The notes under the pieces: model-generated
What the model saw: only the letters and a program-made list of their open reading frames with translations
What the model was told of the DNA's origin: nothing
Databases searched by the model: none
Translations under genes and position numbers: made by a program
Part shown: positions 16,899 to 24,218 of the stretch, piece by piece
Layout of the letters: every line of letters starts with the position of its first letter
Numbering within the stretch: position 1 is the stretch's first letter
Origin: an uncultured Bacillota bacterium
GTDB lineage: Bacteria; Bacillota; Clostridia; Peptostreptococcales; Anaerovoracaceae
Reading direction: 5' to 3'
Assembly: GCA_949295785.1 (NCBI GenBank)
Contig: CASFMJ010000065.1
Span: forward strand, 1 to 37,718
DNA length: 37,718 nucleotides

Positions 16899-18287
16899 TT
16901 ATTTGCTCAGATATTCATCAATTCCGGCAGCAGCCACTTTGCCTGCTCCCATGGCTTTGATGACTGTAGCAGCTCCTGTTACGGCGTCACCGCCTGCGAA
17001 GATTCCTTCGCGGTTTGTAGCGGCTCCTTCATCTGTGCCTATGCCGCCTTTACTGTTGGCAGCAAGATTTTCTGTTGTGTCAAGAATCAGCGTGTTCAGC
17101 TTGGTTCCGATGGCCATTATAACGCAGTCTACATCAAGAACAAAATTTGAATCCTTTATCTCTACAGGTCTTCTTCTGCCTGATGCATCCGGCTCGCCCA
17201 GTTCCATCTTCACACATTCGATTCCGCAGACATGGCCGTCCTCAGTACCTTTTATAGCTACCGGGTTGGTCAGGTAGCGGAAATCTATACCCTCTTCAAC
17301 GGCATGGTGGATTTCTTCAGCTCTTGCCGGTATTTCAGCAGCTGAACGACGATATATGATATATACGTTCTCTGCTCCCATGCGCTTGGCGCATCTGGCC
17401 GCATCCATAGCCACGTTACCGCCTCCTACAACAGCGATATTCTTTGCATACTGTATAGGTGTGTCGTATTCCGGAAGATATGCCTTCATCAGGTTGATAC
17501 GTGTAAGATACTCGTTGGCTGAACATACGCCCAGCAGATTCTCTCCGGGGATGTTCATAAATGCCGGAAGTCCTGCGCCTGTACCGATAAATACCGATTC
17601 AAAGCCTTCTTCTTTCATCAGTTCGTCTACAGTCATAGCTCTTCCGATTATGGCATCTGTAACGAATTTTACACCTTTTGCCTCAAGGCCTGCAACTTCC
17701 TTGGCAACAATCTCCTTGGGCAGACGGAACTGAGGAATTCCGTATACCAGTACTCCGCCTGTTTTGTGCAGGCTCTCGAATACCGTTACATCATATCCCT
17801 TGTTTATCAGATCTCCTGCACACGCCAGACCTGCAGGACCTGCACCTATTATTGCAACTTTATGTCCGTTGCTTTTGGCAGGCTTTATCTCCTCATCGCC
17901 ATAGTTGGCTGCATGCCAGTCCGCAACAAATCTTTCGAGACGTCCTATGGCTACAGGCTCGCCTTTCTTTCCATGTACGCATTTTCCCTCGCACTGAGTC
18001 TCCTGTGGACATACACGGCCGCATATGGCAGGCAGTGAACTGGTTTCGCTTATGATCTGATAAGCTTCTTCAAATTCACCTTCTGCAACCTTTGCGATAA
18101 AATCAGGTATCTTGACCATTACAGGACATCCTGACATACATGGCTTCTTACGGCATTTGAGGCATCTCATTGCCTCGTTTACAGCCATTTCTTCAGTATA
18201 GCCGCATGCAACTTCAAGGAAATTCTTGTTTCTCACTTCAGGAGCCTGTTCCGGCATGGGATTCTTTTTTCTTACTAAATTAATCAT
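16899..18287 (-). CDS. nfnB: NfnB / GltA-type NADPH:ferredoxin oxidoreductase subunit
   Basis: This 462-residue flavoprotein resembles the glutamate synthase small subunit (GltA). The N-terminal part binds two [4Fe-4S] clusters: MRCLKCRKKPCMSGCPVMV and CGRVCPQETQCEGKCVHG. The FAD-binding HKVAIIGAGPAGLACAGDL comes next, and the NAD(P)-binding NIAVVGGGNVAMDAARCAKR lies in the middle. The C-terminal EGIFAGGDAVTGAATVIKAM closes the FAD domain. No large glutamate synthase subunit is present. An NfnA-like gene lies directly upstream, so electron-bifurcating NADH-dependent ferredoxin:NADP+ oxidoreductase is the best reading. I prefer ATG 18287 (GGGAGGTG nine nt upstream) over an in-frame GTG that overlaps that site. 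It overlaps nfnA by 8 nt. Confidence 0.9.
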   Translation of the reverse strand: MINLVRKKNPMPEQAPEVRNKNFLEVACGYTEEMAVNEAMRCLKCRKKPCMSGCPVMVKIPDFIAKVAEGEFEEAYQIISETSSLPAICGRVCPQETQCEGKCVHGKKGEPVAIGRLERFVADWHAANYGDEEIKPAKSNGHKVAIIGAGPAGLACAGDLINKGYDVTVFESLHKTGGVLVYGIPQFRLPKEIVAKEVAGLEAKGVKFVTDAIIGRAMTVDELMKEEGFESVFIGTGAGLPAFMNIPGENLLGVCSANEYLTRINLMKAYLPEYDTPIQYAKNIAVVGGGNVAMDAARCAKRMGAENVYIIYRRSAAEIPARAEEIHHAVEEGIDFRYLTNPVAIKGTEDGHVCGIECVKMELGEPDASGRRRPVEIKDSNFVLDVDCVIMAIGTKLNTLILDTTENLAANSKGGIGTDEGAATNREGIFAGGDAVTGAATVIKAMGAGKVAAAGIDEYLSK

Positions 18288-19143
18288 GGTAACGAACACC
18301 TCCCGTCAAACGGCAGACATGAGCTCTGTCCTCCGCCTCCTGATCTTTATAGTAATTGCTTCTCTTAATCAGTTCGTCCCAGTCAACGAGGGAACCGTCG
18401 AATTCAGGTCCGTCCACGCATACGAATTTATCTTCACCGCCTATATTGCAGCGGCATCCTCCGCACATTCCTGTTCCATCGATCATATATGCTGTCAGTG
18501 AAGCAATACATTTTATATTATGTTCCTGAGCTATCTGGCATACAAATTTCATCATCATAGGAGGACCTACGGCAACGATCTCGTCATATACATTACCTGC
18601 TTCAATGAGCTGTTTCAGCTTGTCGGTGGTAAATGCCTTTTCACCGTATGAACCGTCATCGGTAACAACATAAAGATTATCCACTCCTGCTCTGAATTCG
18701 TCTTCCAGAATGACCAGTTCCTTGGTCTTGAAGCCTTCTATCATGTCGACCTCAATACCGTGTTTTTTCATGCCGGTGGCAAGAGGATATGCAAGAGCGT
18801 TACCTGTTCCTCCGCCTACCACGCAGACTTTTTTAAGGCCTTCCATATGGGTGGGTTTGCCAAGAGGTCCAACTATATCTGCAAAGCAGTCTCCCACTTC
18901 AAGCTGATCCATCAGCATGGTAGTTCTGCCTACAGCCGCATATATCAGATCGATCGTTCCCTCCTCCGAATCATGACCGGCCATGGTGAGAGGTATTCTC
19001 TCACCGTATTCGTCGGTACGAAGGATTATGAACTGTCCCGGTTTGGCATGTTTTGCAACGAGAGGTGCATATATCTTGAGCCAGACCATATTTGAATTCA
19101 GTCTTCTTTTGTATGTAACTTCAAATCTTTTCACTGCACTCAT
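18280..19143 (-). CDS. nfnA: NfnA-type FAD/[2Fe-2S] oxidoreductase subunit
   Basis: This 287-residue protein is of the dihydroorotate dehydrogenase electron-transfer / sulfide dehydrogenase beta family and corresponds to NfnA. The N-terminal FAD barrel has ERIPLTMAGHDSEEGTIDLI. The NAD-binding domain has KVCVVGGGTGNALAYPLATG. The C-terminal DGTGMCGGCRCNIGG and FVCVDGPEFDG carry the [2Fe-2S] cysteines. In NfnAB this subunit oxidises NADH and holds one of the two key flavins. The ATG at 19143 directly abuts GGGAGG; an in-frame GTG nine nt later (19134) has better spacing and may be the true start. It follows PFOR by 9 nt. Confidence 0.9.
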   Translation of the reverse strand: MSAVKRFEVTYKRRLNSNMVWLKIYAPLVAKHAKPGQFIILRTDEYGERIPLTMAGHDSEEGTIDLIYAAVGRTTMLMDQLEVGDCFADIVGPLGKPTHMEGLKKVCVVGGGTGNALAYPLATGMKKHGIEVDMIEGFKTKELVILEDEFRAGVDNLYVVTDDGSYGEKAFTTDKLKQLIEAGNVYDEIVAVGPPMMMKFVCQIAQEHNIKCIASLTAYMIDGTGMCGGCRCNIGGEDKFVCVDGPEFDGSLVDWDELIKRSNYYKDQEAEDRAHVCRLTGGVRYHD

Positions 19144-19152
19144 CCTCCCTTC

Positions 19153-22100
19153 CTAATTGTCCATGCTCTTCTTGCGGTTGAGCAGCGTCTCATATCTTTC
19201 CTTAGCCATCTCTTCAGCCTCTTCAAAGAGTTTTTCGGCTCTTTCAGGGAATTTGAGCTTCAGTGAATTGTATCTTACTTCGCCCATGATGAAGTCTCTG
19301 TAGTTTTCAGTGGCTTCTCCGCTGTCAAGTGAAAGCGGATTCTTGCCTTCTTTAGCAAGATCAGGATTATATCTTAAGAGATTCCAGTATCCTGAAAGTA
19401 CAGCGTGCTTCATCTCGGCCATTGCCTTGTTCATTCCGGCTTTTACACCGTGGTTGATACAAGGCGCATAAGCTATTATAAGCGATGGTCCGTCATAGCT
19501 TTCGGCTTCTCTTATGGCCTTGAGAGTCTGGGCCGGGTTAGCACCCATGGCTATCTGGGCAACATATACATATCCGTAGGCCATGGCTATCTGTGCCAGA
19601 TCTTTTTTCTTTACGGCTTTTCCTGATGCGGCAAACTTGGCTACAGCTCCTATAGGAGTTGCCTTTGATGACTGTCCGCCCGTGTTGGAATATACTTCTG
19701 TATCAAATACCATAACATTGACATTCTCTCCGGAAGCAAGTACATGGTCCAGTCCTCCGTATCCTATATCATAAGCCCAGCCGTCTCCTCCGAATATCCA
19801 CATGGACGGTTTAACCAGCATATCCTTGTTCTCAACAACATATCTTGCATCTTCGTTCTTATCTTTCAGTTCTTCACATGCTTTGGCAAGGGCATCACCG
19901 GTTCTTCCTGAAACCTTTGCATCATCCATTGTAGCAAGCCATGCTTTGGCAGGCACGCCCACTACATCCACCAGTCTTTCAACTGCAGATTTCAGTTCTT
20001 TTCTTCTGGCCTGTACAGATATGGTCATTCCAAGGCCGAATTCCGCATTGTCCTCGAAGAGGGAATTGGCCCATGCAGGTCCCTTTCCTTCCTTGTTTAC
20101 CGTGTAAGGCGTGCTTGGAGCCGAACATCCCCAGATAGATGAACATCCGGTAGCATTGGCGATAAACATCCTGTCTCCAAACAGCTGTGTAACCAGTTTG
20201 GCATAAGGTGACTCTCCGCATCCCGGGCATGCGCCTGAGAATTCCATGAGAGGCTGCCTGAACTGAGAGCCTTTGACAGTATCGTCTTTAAACTGAGTTT
20301 CTTTTTCTGTGACATCATCAAACAGATAATTGAATCTCTCCTGCTGAGCGGCAACGTATTCGTCTTCGGCAGGCTGCATCTCAAGAGCCTTCTTTCTTGC
20401 CGGACATACGTCTACGCATGAGCCGCATCCTGTACAGTCAAGAGCAGAAATACCGATGGTGAAGTATTTACCTTTTTCACCCTTCATGGCAAGAGCCGTA
20501 TCCTTGACAGGTTCTGCCTCTTTTTCATCCATGACGAATGGCCTTATTACTCCGTGAGGACAAACATATGAACACCAGTTGCACTGCATGCAGTTTGCCA
20601 TATTCCACTTTGGAACATCTGCCGCAATACCTCTCTTTTCATAAGCTGCTGTTCCTGCCGGAACCATTCCGTTGGCAGTATCCAGGAATGTTGAAACAGG
20701 TACGCTGTCGCCTGTCATTGTATTGGTAGGAATGAGCACCTTGTTGAGGTATTCGGTGTGAATCTTATCGCGGCCCACCATTTCCTGCGGTTTTCTGTCA
20801 TCAGTGGCTGTTTTCCAGCTTTCGGGAACTTCTACCTTATGTACATGGGTTATTCCGGCATCGACGGCAGCCAGGTTCATGTTTACGATCTTTTCACCTT
20901 TCTTGCCGTAAGTCTTCTTGATGGCGTCTTTCATATAAGTTACAGCATCATCAATAGGAATTATATCTGCCAGCTTGAAGAATGCAGCCTGCAGAACAGA
21001 GTTTGTTCTTCTTGCTCCAAGGCCTATCTCTTTTGCTATGTTAACAGCATCACAAGTATAGAACTGTACGTTGTTATTAGCTATATATCTCTTTATCTTC
21101 GCAGGAAGATGTTCTTCCAGCTCCTCATCGTTCCATACACAGTTGAGCAGGAAGAATCCGCCCGGTTTAACGTCTTCTACCATTTCATATTTGTAGATAT
21201 ATGCAGAATTATGGCATGCTACAAAGTCAGCCTGCTTTACATAATAAGTGGATTTTATCGGCTCATCACCAAAGCGCAGATGAGAAATGGTTATGCCTCC
21301 TGACTTTTTGGAATCGTACTGGAAATATGCCTGTACCTTCTTGTCTGTATGGTCTCCGATAATCTTTACACTGTTCTTATTGGCTCCTACAGTTCCGTCA
21401 GCACCAAGGCCCCAGAACTTGCAGGCTTTGGTACCCTTAGGAGAAACGTCCGGATTCTCTGAAGGTGTAAGTGAAAGATTGGTCACATCGTCTGTTATGG
21501 AGATAGTGAACTCTTTCTTCGGTGTATCGCTCCAGAGGTTCTCATATACGGCCAGTATGTCTCCCGGCTGAGTATCCTTTGATCCCAGACCGTAACGTCC
21601 GCCTGTGATAAGGGCGCTGTCAAACTTTGTTCCTCTGAGAGCTGAAATCACATCAAGATACAGAGGCTCTCCGACTCCGCCCGGTTCCTTTGTCCTGTCA
21701 AGTACAGCAATCTTATTGACTGTGGCAGGTATAACATCAAGTAGATATTTCTGTGAGAAAGGTCTGTAAAGGTGAACCTCAACGATTCCAACTTTCTTGC
21801 CTTTTGCTCTCAGGTAATCTATAACTTCTTCTGCCGCATCGCATACAGAACCCATGGCCACTATGATCTCTGTAGCTTCCGGATCTCCGTAATAGTTAAA
21901 CGGCTTATAGTCTGTTCCGATCTTTTTGTTTACTTTATCCATGTATTCAGCAACAATGTCTGCCGTCTCCAGATATGCTGTATTGCAAGCTTCTCTGTGC
22001 TGGAAGAATGTCTCAGGCTGCTCGGCAGAACCCATGCTGTGAGGATGATTCGGGTTAAGTGATCTGTCCTTGAATGCTCTTACTGCATTCCAGTCCACCA

Positions 22101-22677
22101 TTTCTTTCAGTTCATCATAGTCCCATACTTCAATCTTCTGGTTCTCGTGAGAGGTTCTGAATCCGTCAAAGAAGTGAAGCATAGGCAGTCTTCCTGCTAT
22201 GGTTGCAAGATGAGCCACAGCTGCCAGATCCATTACCTGCTGAACGCTGTTTGAAGCCAGCATGGCAAAACCTGTCTGGCGGCATCCCATGACGTCTGAA
22301 TGGTCTCCGAATATGGAGAGGGCATGAGTAGCCAGTGCTCTTGCCGCAACGTGGAATACGGTAGGAGTCTGTTCTCCTGCCAGTTTATACATGTTGGGGA
22401 TCATAAGAAGAAGTCCCTGAGAAGCAGTAAACGTTGAAGTATATGAACCTGCCGTAATGGCTCCGTGAACCGCACCGGCAGCACCTCCTTCTGACTGCAT
22501 CTCAACGATTCTCACTTTTTCTCCGAATATATTTGTTCTGTCCTGGGAAACCCATTCGTCCATGCTCTCTGCCATAGGTGAAGACGGGGTGATCGGATAG
22601 ATCGCCGCAACTTCAGAGAAGGCATATGCTACGTGAGCGGCCGCTGTGTTTCCGTCCATTGTCTTTAATTTTCTCAC
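19153..22677 (-). CDS. nifJ: Pyruvate:ferredoxin (flavodoxin) oxidoreductase
   Basis: This 1174-residue single-chain PFOR oxidises pyruvate and CoA to acetyl-CoA, CO2 and reduced ferredoxin. The N-terminal domain reads KTMDGNTAAAHVAYAFSEVA and AIYPITPSSPMAE, then the CoA and swivel domains. Two [4Fe-4S] clusters lie near residues 690-760, in MQCNWCSYVCPHGVI and DCTGCGSCVDVCP. The thiamine pyrophosphate domain has GACPGCGESPYAK, NATGCSSIWG, GDGWAYDIGYGGLDH and the diphosphate-binding VYSNTGGQSSKATP. Length matches the family. I choose the GTG at 22677, which has AAGGAGAG at normal spacing and the usual family N terminus; a GTG nine nt upstream overlaps the preceding stop but has no room for a ribosome binding site. 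Confidence 0.97.
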   Translation of the reverse strand: MRKLKTMDGNTAAAHVAYAFSEVAAIYPITPSSPMAESMDEWVSQDRTNIFGEKVRIVEMQSEGGAAGAVHGAITAGSYTSTFTASQGLLLMIPNMYKLAGEQTPTVFHVAARALATHALSIFGDHSDVMGCRQTGFAMLASNSVQQVMDLAAVAHLATIAGRLPMLHFFDGFRTSHENQKIEVWDYDELKEMVDWNAVRAFKDRSLNPNHPHSMGSAEQPETFFQHREACNTAYLETADIVAEYMDKVNKKIGTDYKPFNYYGDPEATEIIVAMGSVCDAAEEVIDYLRAKGKKVGIVEVHLYRPFSQKYLLDVIPATVNKIAVLDRTKEPGGVGEPLYLDVISALRGTKFDSALITGGRYGLGSKDTQPGDILAVYENLWSDTPKKEFTISITDDVTNLSLTPSENPDVSPKGTKACKFWGLGADGTVGANKNSVKIIGDHTDKKVQAYFQYDSKKSGGITISHLRFGDEPIKSTYYVKQADFVACHNSAYIYKYEMVEDVKPGGFFLLNCVWNDEELEEHLPAKIKRYIANNNVQFYTCDAVNIAKEIGLGARRTNSVLQAAFFKLADIIPIDDAVTYMKDAIKKTYGKKGEKIVNMNLAAVDAGITHVHKVEVPESWKTATDDRKPQEMVGRDKIHTEYLNKVLIPTNTMTGDSVPVSTFLDTANGMVPAGTAAYEKRGIAADVPKWNMANCMQCNWCSYVCPHGVIRPFVMDEKEAEPVKDTALAMKGEKGKYFTIGISALDCTGCGSCVDVCPARKKALEMQPAEDEYVAAQQERFNYLFDDVTEKETQFKDDTVKGSQFRQPLMEFSGACPGCGESPYAKLVTQLFGDRMFIANATGCSSIWGCSAPSTPYTVNKEGKGPAWANSLFEDNAEFGLGMTISVQARRKELKSAVERLVDVVGVPAKAWLATMDDAKVSGRTGDALAKACEELKDKNEDARYVVENKDMLVKPSMWIFGGDGWAYDIGYGGLDHVLASGENVNVMVFDTEVYSNTGGQSSKATPIGAVAKFAASGKAVKKKDLAQIAMAYGYVYVAQIAMGANPAQTLKAIREAESYDGPSLIIAYAPCINHGVKAGMNKAMAEMKHAVLSGYWNLLRYNPDLAKEGKNPLSLDSGEATENYRDFIMGEVRYNSLKLKFPERAEKLFEEAEEMAKERYETLLNRKKSMDN

Positions 22678-22682
22678 AGTAA

Positions 22683-23981
22683 TCACTCTCCTTCCCTTAT
22701 GCCAAGAGCTTCTCTCTGCAGGTAGTTATATTCGGGAACTGACTGTTCCTTTATAACACGTCTTGCGCAAACATACTGGCATACATTACAGTTTTCACAC
22801 AGTTCAGGATCTACCACAGCATGCTTATCTTCCATATATATAGCGCTGTTAGGGCAGTTATCGACACAATCTCCGCATGCTATGCAGCCTGACCAGCATA
22901 CCTTAGCCTTATCTTCATAATCATCTGTGGAACTGCACGGAACCTGCTTCTGTCCCTTATACGGAACCATTACGATCAGGTGCTTAGGACATGCATATGT
23001 ACAATCCTTACAGCCTACGCACTTGTCGGGATCCACAACAGCAGTGCCGTTTACCACATGTATGGCATCATATCTGCATACTTTTGTACAGCTTCCCTGC
23101 CCGCAGCATCCTGTGGTGCACAGTTCATATTCCTTCGGATCTACCTTTTCAATGGCTTCTTCGCATGAAGTTATGCCAAGCTTCTTATATACTTCAGAGG
23201 CCTTGTATCCGCCGCTGCATTTTACAAAAGCAACTTTTTCCTTTATCTTGGTCAGATCGTGGAGAGTGTCCACTATTATCTTCTTTCTGCATTTAACTGT
23301 ACATGCCACACATCCGACACACTTGTCATAATCTATTACGGCATGATTATCTATGATAGATACCGCTCCTTCAGGACATGCTCTTTCGCACTCACCACAG
23401 GAAATACAGCCGTATCCGCAGATTTTTCTTGTAACTTCGTCGTCTTCTTCTGTGGACGAACACGGGATAAAGTTGGTTGCGTCTCTCGGCACCATATGTA
23501 TTATGTTCTGTGGGCATGCCGTTTTATTGGCGCAGGCTCCACAGCCGGTGCATTTTTCTCTGTCTATGATAATCTTGCCGTCTTCGGCTTTCATAGCGCC
23601 GAACTCACATACATCAACACATGAACCGACTCCCACACATCCGTCTTTGCACTCGCCTCTCTTGAAGCCTTTTTCCACCGCTTCGGCACAGGTTTTATAC
23701 ATTCCGGCTCTTTCTTTTCCGGCAGCGCTTCCGCTGCAGAATACGAATGCAACCTGATCTTTTGCCTTTTCGGTGTCCCTTCCCATAGCCTCTGCTATAG
23801 CATCAACCTTTTTCTGGTCGCATGCCGGGCACAGGGCTACGCTGGCGCCTTCTGCTATGGCTTCGGCGCACTCAAGACATGTTTTTCTGCCGCAGCCGCC
23901 AAGGCCTTTGCAGTCAACACCCGGCAGAAGCGAAAGTATTTTCTTTACCACTTCTGCGGTTGTTCCTGGTTTTGAACTCAT
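22683..23981 (-). CDS. Soluble polyferredoxin with duplicated RnfB-like modules
   Basis: This 432-residue protein holds about 47 cysteines and has no membrane helix or signal peptide. Residues 24-54 form an RnfB-type [4Fe-4S] domain (CKGLGGCGRKTCLECAEA, then ALCPAC). Two homologous modules follow, at about 77-236 and 250-411. Each opens with AFVxCSG, then GCxGxGSCxxVC, a CxxCxxC ferredoxin pattern, a VPCSST linker and a second CxxCxxC pair. This is the order seen in the cluster-rich part of RnfB, here present twice. It is the first gene of the PFOR-NfnA-NfnB operon, 5 nt before PFOR. It could carry electrons from PFOR, or recruit ferredoxin. ATG 23981 is preceded by AAGGAGGTATTACT; longer in-frame starts lack such a site. 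Confidence 0.88.
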   Translation of the reverse strand: MSSKPGTTAEVVKKILSLLPGVDCKGLGGCGRKTCLECAEAIAEGASVALCPACDQKKVDAIAEAMGRDTEKAKDQVAFVFCSGSAAGKERAGMYKTCAEAVEKGFKRGECKDGCVGVGSCVDVCEFGAMKAEDGKIIIDREKCTGCGACANKTACPQNIIHMVPRDATNFIPCSSTEEDDEVTRKICGYGCISCGECERACPEGAVSIIDNHAVIDYDKCVGCVACTVKCRKKIIVDTLHDLTKIKEKVAFVKCSGGYKASEVYKKLGITSCEEAIEKVDPKEYELCTTGCCGQGSCTKVCRYDAIHVVNGTAVVDPDKCVGCKDCTYACPKHLIVMVPYKGQKQVPCSSTDDYEDKAKVCWSGCIACGDCVDNCPNSAIYMEDKHAVVDPELCENCNVCQYVCARRVIKEQSVPEYNYLQREALGIREGE

Positions 23982-24048: not shown

Positions 24049-24077
24049 AAAAAAGCCGCAGCAAATACCGCTGCGGC
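24049..24077 (-). terminator. Intrinsic terminator inside the PFOR operon leader
   Basis: A perfect 8-bp GCCGCAGC/GCTGCGGC stem (24055-24062 with 24070-24077) is followed by six T residues on the minus strand. It lies between the operon promoter and the first gene, so it is either an attenuator or the end of a small RNA. Confidence 0.88.
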
Positions 24078-24184
24078 ATATAAGCGACATAAAGCGTCTG
24101 GTCATCCTCATGTCTTCTACTTTGTACACCTCAAGCGGAACTCTATTTAACTTTTTCCGCTGAATGTTTACGACACTTGGCCTT
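24055..24184 (-). ncRNA. Structured leader RNA (attenuator or small RNA), unassigned
   Basis: About 130 nt separate the predicted transcription start from a strong terminator, with no gene between. A perfect hairpin pairs AGCGGAA with TTCCGCT around a 14-nt loop. A GACAT/ATGTC stem follows, then the terminator. CAGCGG occurs both in the first hairpin and in the left arm of the terminator, so CCGCT from the first hairpin could pair with the terminator and prevent it. I compared it by eye with known riboswitch cores (TPP, SAM, lysine, glycine, c-di-GMP, THF, FMN, purine, fluoride, T-box) and recognised none. It may be a new riboswitch, a protein-binding attenuator or a small RNA. Confidence 0.55.
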
Positions 24185-24190
24185 ACTTTA

Positions 24191-24218
24191 ATTATATTTA
24201 CCTTATTCAAATTGTCAA
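24191..24218 (-). promoter_or_regulatory. Near-consensus promoter of the polyferredoxin-PFOR-Nfn operon
   Basis: TTGACA (24213-24218) and TATAAT (24191-24196) match consensus exactly on the minus strand, with 16 nt between. The -35 overlaps the stop codon of the upstream Nudix gene. It should be a strong promoter. Confidence 0.85.

Follow-up and report, generated by a model that had tools for sequence, protein, structure and literature searches.

A candidate transcription attenuator before the polyferredoxin-PFOR-NfnAB operon in one genus of uncultured gut anaerobes

We describe a leader of about 130 nt that precedes an operon for a polyferredoxin, pyruvate:ferredoxin oxidoreductase (PFOR) and an NfnA/NfnB-like pair, and that is probably a cis-acting transcription attenuator of this operon. 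It occupies the minus strand, with a NUDIX gene on one side and the operon on the other, in a 37,718-nt stretch of DNA (the window) that forms part of a 1.9-Mb draft genome; judged from named relatives, the family, Anaerovoracaceae, includes Emergencia, Aminicella and Hornefia. A preliminary description of the region, which gave no strand, had proposed a cis-acting attenuator for a redox operon. This proposal is supported by congeners: wherever the upstream region is assembled, the orthologous operon is preceded by the promoter, helix 1 and the terminator.

The leader and its conservation within the genus

The features are given in the direction of transcription.
24829-24215, minus strand: NUDIX gene, immediately upstream of the leader on the same strand
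24191-24218, minus strand: promoter, TTGACA (24218-24213), 16-nt spacer, TATAAT (24196-24191), 12/12 match to consensus
24164-24176, minus strand: GTGTCGTAAACAT element, 13 nt, at about +9, with an identical core at the same place in G001 and G004
24155-24161, minus strand: strand 1, AGCGGAA, 5' arm of helix 1 and predicted anti-antiterminator (from the fold; AGCGGA invariant in four species)
24128-24140, minus strand: strand 2, UUCCGC plus UUGAGGU, 3' arm of helix 1 with its 3' flank and predicted antiterminator (UUCCGC invariant)
24086-24114, minus strand: middle hairpin GACAU..AUGUC, variable in sequence (from the fold)
24055-24077, minus strand: strands 3 and 4, terminator hairpin GCCGCAGCG-GUAUU-UGCUGCGGC, strand 3 being the 5' arm (from scan and fold)
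24049-24054, minus strand: terminator U tract, U6 (read directly from the sequence)
22683-23981, minus strand: polyferredoxin, first gene of the operon, with several 4Fe-4S (Fer4) domains and an RnfB-like N terminus
19153-22686, minus strand: PFOR (TIGR02176, 1776 bits against a cut-off of 911)
16899-19143, minus strand: NfnA/NfnB-like pair (NF004862, 370 bits; TIGR01316, 568 bits; both above cut-off)

The preliminary description had reported a near-consensus promoter, about 130 nt of leader and a strong terminator, and all three were confirmed. The promoter matches the consensus at every position, and the transcript would begin near 24184. A 5-kb scan found 20 promoter-like sites against 10.7 expected, and the leader promoter was the sole 12/12 match among them. 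The terminator, a nine-pair hairpin (GCCGCAGCG/UGCUGCGGC) followed by TTTTTT, was among the two strongest in the same scan. When both strands of the whole window were searched for a promoter of at least 10/12 with a terminator of -9 kcal/mol or lower 60-220 nt further on, only 2 places were found, of which the leader (12/12, -17.5) was far the stronger. The 136-nt region folds at -41.9 kcal/mol (z = -2.9), as low as only 1 of 200 shuffled sequences, and the z-scores of all four species' leaders range from -2.2 to -2.9. Upstream of the NUDIX gene, the minus strand also carries a strong terminator (25029-25006) and an 11/12 promoter (25554-25526).

The polyferredoxin gene starts with ATG at 23981 behind the ribosome-binding site AGGAGG, and the PFOR gene overlaps it by 4 bases. 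The NfnA/NfnB-like pair, composed of an NAD-binding subunit (19143-18280) and a GltA-like subunit (18299-16899), is probably the end of the operon. A cobalamin riboswitch (RF00174, 44.2 bits; 16766-16567, minus strand) lies between this pair and a CobD/CbiB gene.

We sampled six species of the genus, four of which have both the polyferredoxin gene and an assembled upstream region. A contig end truncates PFOR in the fifth (G003), and in the sixth (G005) no match was found. All four species with an assembled upstream region carry promoter, helix 1 and terminator in the same order before the orthologous operon. Polyferredoxin identity to the window is 83% in G001 (locus L003), 79% in G004 (L004) and 77% in G002 (L005); the orthologous promoters match at 12/12 positions with a 16-nt spacer in G001 and G004, and at 11/12 in G002.

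Alignment of the four leaders leaves three conserved blocks, namely AGCGGA, UUCCGC with its GAGG/AAGG flank, and the terminator, and these blocks are the predicted strands of a switch. Over helix 1, the middle hairpin and the terminator, 91.7% of alignment cells are paired, compared with 32-58% in slid controls, a comparison that is biased because the structure was derived from the same four sequences. The proposed check for covariation in relatives did find some, albeit weak because only four species were available: three pairs in the whole structure show changes on both sides. Two of them are in the middle hairpin, which is paired in 75% of cells. Helix 1 is paired in 100% of cells and yields no covariation because it is invariant apart from one G-U, and the lower helix of the terminator, also paired in 100% of cells, shows one C-G to U-A change.

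Competing pairings and read-through into the operon

As the preliminary description claimed, CCGCT of the first hairpin is complementary to AGCGG in the terminator arm. The alternative pairing is in fact more extensive, as UUCCGC and the GAGGU that follows are able to pair with the whole 5' arm of the terminator in 4/4 species, and the two exclusive folds proposed from one sequence are available in each. Among upstream segments, strand 2 (UUCCGC..GGU) was the one that paired best with the 5' arm of the terminator in all four species. Folding of the growing transcript gave the same succession in each of them, with strand 2 first in helix 1, then on the terminator arm, and back in helix 1 once strand 4 was complete. 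Forcing the antiterminator placed the fold 2.4-10 kcal/mol above the minimum. Compared with shuffled arms, the pairing energy gave fractions of 0.056 in the window and 0.013, 0.008 and 0.024 in the other three species; compared with shuffled upstream regions, the fractions were 0.26 (window), 0.04, 0.10 and 0.12, and because the four sequences are related, these values are not independent and cannot be multiplied. In the window alone the energy of the 2:3 pairing is unexceptional, with 26% of upstream shuffles doing as well, and support for the pairing comes from its presence in all four species rather than from this energy. The most informative case is G002, whose terminator stem has changed most yet still has GCGGGAUU opposite AAUUCCGC.

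In each of the four species, a promoter and then an intrinsic terminator stand in the leader before the first gene, and the same strands provide an antiterminator that is exclusive with the terminator, though weak in the window alone. From these sequences, a textbook 1:2 / 2:3 / 3:4 attenuator architecture is predicted and well supported. A short RNA with two exclusive folds before the PFOR genes is therefore probably an on/off switch. In the mechanism we propose, RNA polymerase would begin at the near-perfect promoter and transcribe the four leader strands one after another. Strand 1 (AGCGGAA) and strand 2 (UUCCGC...GAGGU) would form helix 1, and strand 3 (GCCGCAGCGG) and strand 4 (UGCUGCGGC) the terminator, which would be blocked if strand 2 paired with strand 3 instead. 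By default helix 1 would form first and the terminator would release most transcripts; if strand 2 were freed, or the 2:3 pairing helped before strand 4 was made, polymerase would read into the operon. We infer that termination occurs, and that the 2:3 pairing forms in the cell and is regulated.

The leader could instead hold a passive, leaky terminator that tunes down an overly strong constitutive promoter, with the 2:3 pairing as a by-product of GC-rich repeats. We regard this as the less probable reading, though one to be taken seriously. Helix 1 and the terminator do share AGCGG, the four species have no sensor, aptamer or leader open reading frame (ORF) conserved among them, the window's own 2:3 energy is ordinary, and the leader is single copy in each genome. 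However, an unregulated terminator would not readily account for the retention of helix 1 and its GAGG/AAGG flank while the surroundings drift, nor for the complement to strand 2 that G002 keeps in its altered terminator.

The distance from the terminator to the polyferredoxin gene had been put at 68 nt, counted from the end point chosen there; from the terminator stem to the ATG it is 73 nt. The best candidate promoter within this interval matches at only 8/12 positions in the window, and candidates are similarly poor (8-9/12) in the window and G001, where read-through into the operon is likely. In G004 only 33 nt separate the terminator stem from the ATG, and no promoter fits there because this short interval is partly occupied by the ribosome-binding site; any expression of the operon in G004 therefore requires read-through. 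A fair second candidate, TTTACA-15-TATAAT, lies 3' of the terminator in G002, so the terminator could be bypassed in this species and read-through is perhaps optional.

These intervals also bear on the suggestion that the leader is a small RNA in its own right, or the 3'-terminal part of a NUDIX transcript, and that the operon is served by its own promoter after the terminator. The NUDIX gene does lie just upstream on the same strand, ending at 24215, and G002 has its possible second promoter. Against this, the 12/12 promoter sits between NUDIX and leader, and the post-terminator promoter is poor in the window and missing from G004; we consider the suggestion improbable. A small RNA could arise as a by-product of the leader, but the attenuator reading does not need one.

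Possible triggers and relation to known leaders

No Rfam family (4227 families, including riboswitches, T-boxes and protein leaders) matched the leader at its gathering score, which agrees with the earlier statement that no known riboswitch core was recognised. Permissive thresholds added nothing, the best sub-threshold match being a Burkholderia sRNA at half its cut-off, and a viral sequence collection contained nothing relevant. We built a covariance model from the four genus leaders and searched about 350 genomes of the family and about 390 of the order. The model scored 89-111 bits on the four orthologues and at most about 35 bits on anything else, and no leader was found outside the genus in these genomes. 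A wider family was rejected: the next match among the approximately 350 genomes, in G198 (E = 6.7e-4 per genome), has just a terminator and lacks helix 1. Within the genomes searched, the leader is confined to one genus, with one copy per genome, always before the polyferredoxin-PFOR operon; a close relative of the polyferredoxin is present in 90 of 350 family genomes.

The possibility of metabolite sensing, raised in the preliminary description, was not upheld, as no unpaired aptamer core is kept in 4/4 species and the columns that are conserved belong to the switch strands. An undescribed class of metabolite riboswitch, responding for example to a redox cofactor and with helix 1 as its aptamer, would suit the position before a central redox operon, the terminator switch, the low folding energy and the missing Rfam match. 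However, the loop of helix 1 varies from 8 to 16 nt with no motif common to the four species, the middle hairpin is variable, and the sole conserved unpaired stretch (GUCGUAAAC) lies outside the transcript in G002. Most aptamers are not confined to one genus and one operon, as this leader is. With no loop or joining stretch common to the four species, an aptamer is unlikely, and we give the riboswitch reading little credence. Since conservation across all four species is limited to the switching strands, we think a trans-acting RNA-binding protein or an effect on polymerase pausing or elongation more likely than a metabolite aptamer. The sequences fit a protein that acts on the leader RNA, an effect on elongation and a passive terminator alike.

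Ribosome-mediated attenuation was examined first because the window's frame through the terminator, ORF MRMTRRFMSLICRSGICCGFFRV, spells ICRSGICC. This ORF recalls cysteine leader peptides, with three Cys codons at the terminator base and in its 3' arm, and Cys would suit an iron-sulfur-rich operon; but in G001 a stop codon immediately precedes the frame, which lacks a start, the G002 terminator does not encode this type of peptide, the four species have no ORF with a ribosome-binding site in common, and there was no NCBIfam match, so that a leader peptide is very improbable.

Transcriptional OFF riboswitches share with the attenuator we propose a terminator-based architecture before a metabolic operon, whereas this leader lacks an aptamer core in all four species and occurs in one genus only. 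ANTAR elements need small (hexanucleotide) loops with a fixed A and G. In ANTAR (EutV-type) two-hairpin antitermination elements, hairpins decide on the leader terminator (PMC3369931), as they would here. Unlike those elements, helix 1 has a loop of 8-16 nt without common bases and does not qualify as an ANTAR hairpin. Among protein-controlled terminator/antiterminator leaders of Bacillota, the closest parallels are the trp leader with TRAP (PMC3913778) and the rplJL leader with L10(L12)4 (PMC4538822). Like these, the leader serves a single operon and has competing 2:3 and 3:4 pairings with an upstream structure that would decide between them; unlike them, we saw neither TRAP repeats nor a ribosomal-protein mimic, and it has no Rfam match. 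The attenuator type is familiar, and this leader is an orphan member of it rather than evidence for a new riboswitch class. A brief search of the open-access literature found no description of transcription attenuation for an operon of the PFOR-polyferredoxin-NfnAB type, nor any paper linking PFOR with terminator control.

Operator-like elements and control in other genera

The GTGTCGTAAACAT element is common to three species; in G002 its core, GTCGTAAAC, lies at the -35 element, upstream of the transcript, so that each of the four congeners has GTCGTAAAC close to its promoter. After the terminator, partial inverted copies are present in the window (TACGACA, 24007-24001) and in G001 (ATGTTACGAC). 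Because the core precedes the transcript in G002 and because of these inverted copies, GTGTCGTAAACAT probably acts as a DNA operator and not as a component of the RNA switch. The six genus genomes contain no further exact copies of GTGTCGTAAACAT, and a GTGTCGTAAACAT regulon was rejected, there being no excess over the reversed pattern. The GTCGTAAAC element looks like a transcription-factor site without a wider regulon.

In other genera the operon mostly lacks a leader terminator and has TGTATACA just after the promoter, often followed by (A/G)AATA. This palindrome is present in 22 of 37 parsed upstream regions, at about -43 to -164 (L006, L032-L035, L039, L043, L044, L046, L050 and L057; L063, L066, L071, L072, L077, L078, L082, L083 and L087-L089), compared with 0 for each of 11 composition-matched palindromes. 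TGTATACA is probably the site of a dimeric repressor, which we would guess to be a GntR-type protein. The leader genus lacks TGTATACA, except for TGTATACT in G001.

Three species of a third genus (L008, L042 and L048) have a separate and unrelated leader, in which a AGTGTATTTCAT..ATGAAA hairpin is conserved and a terminator again precedes the polyferredoxin gene at the leader's end; a parallel origin of attenuation is possible there. Given operator-like sites in other genera and an unrelated leader in this one, the operon would have switched its mode of control more than once, perhaps with two separate origins of an attenuator.

Carbon and electron flow in these uncultured gut anaerobes centres on PFOR, together with polyferredoxin and NfnAB. 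On a speculative view that we would not favour at present, an RNA-binding regulator of an undescribed kind would act on the leader, or the leader would itself be a minimal aptamer; either would report redox or ferredoxin status and set the PFOR level by antitermination, replacing the operator-type control of the rest of the family. If the attenuator were confirmed, one genus would have moved its PFOR operon from operator-type to RNA-based control, and the leader would be a compact attenuator open to experiment, with a trigger that might reflect the redox state.
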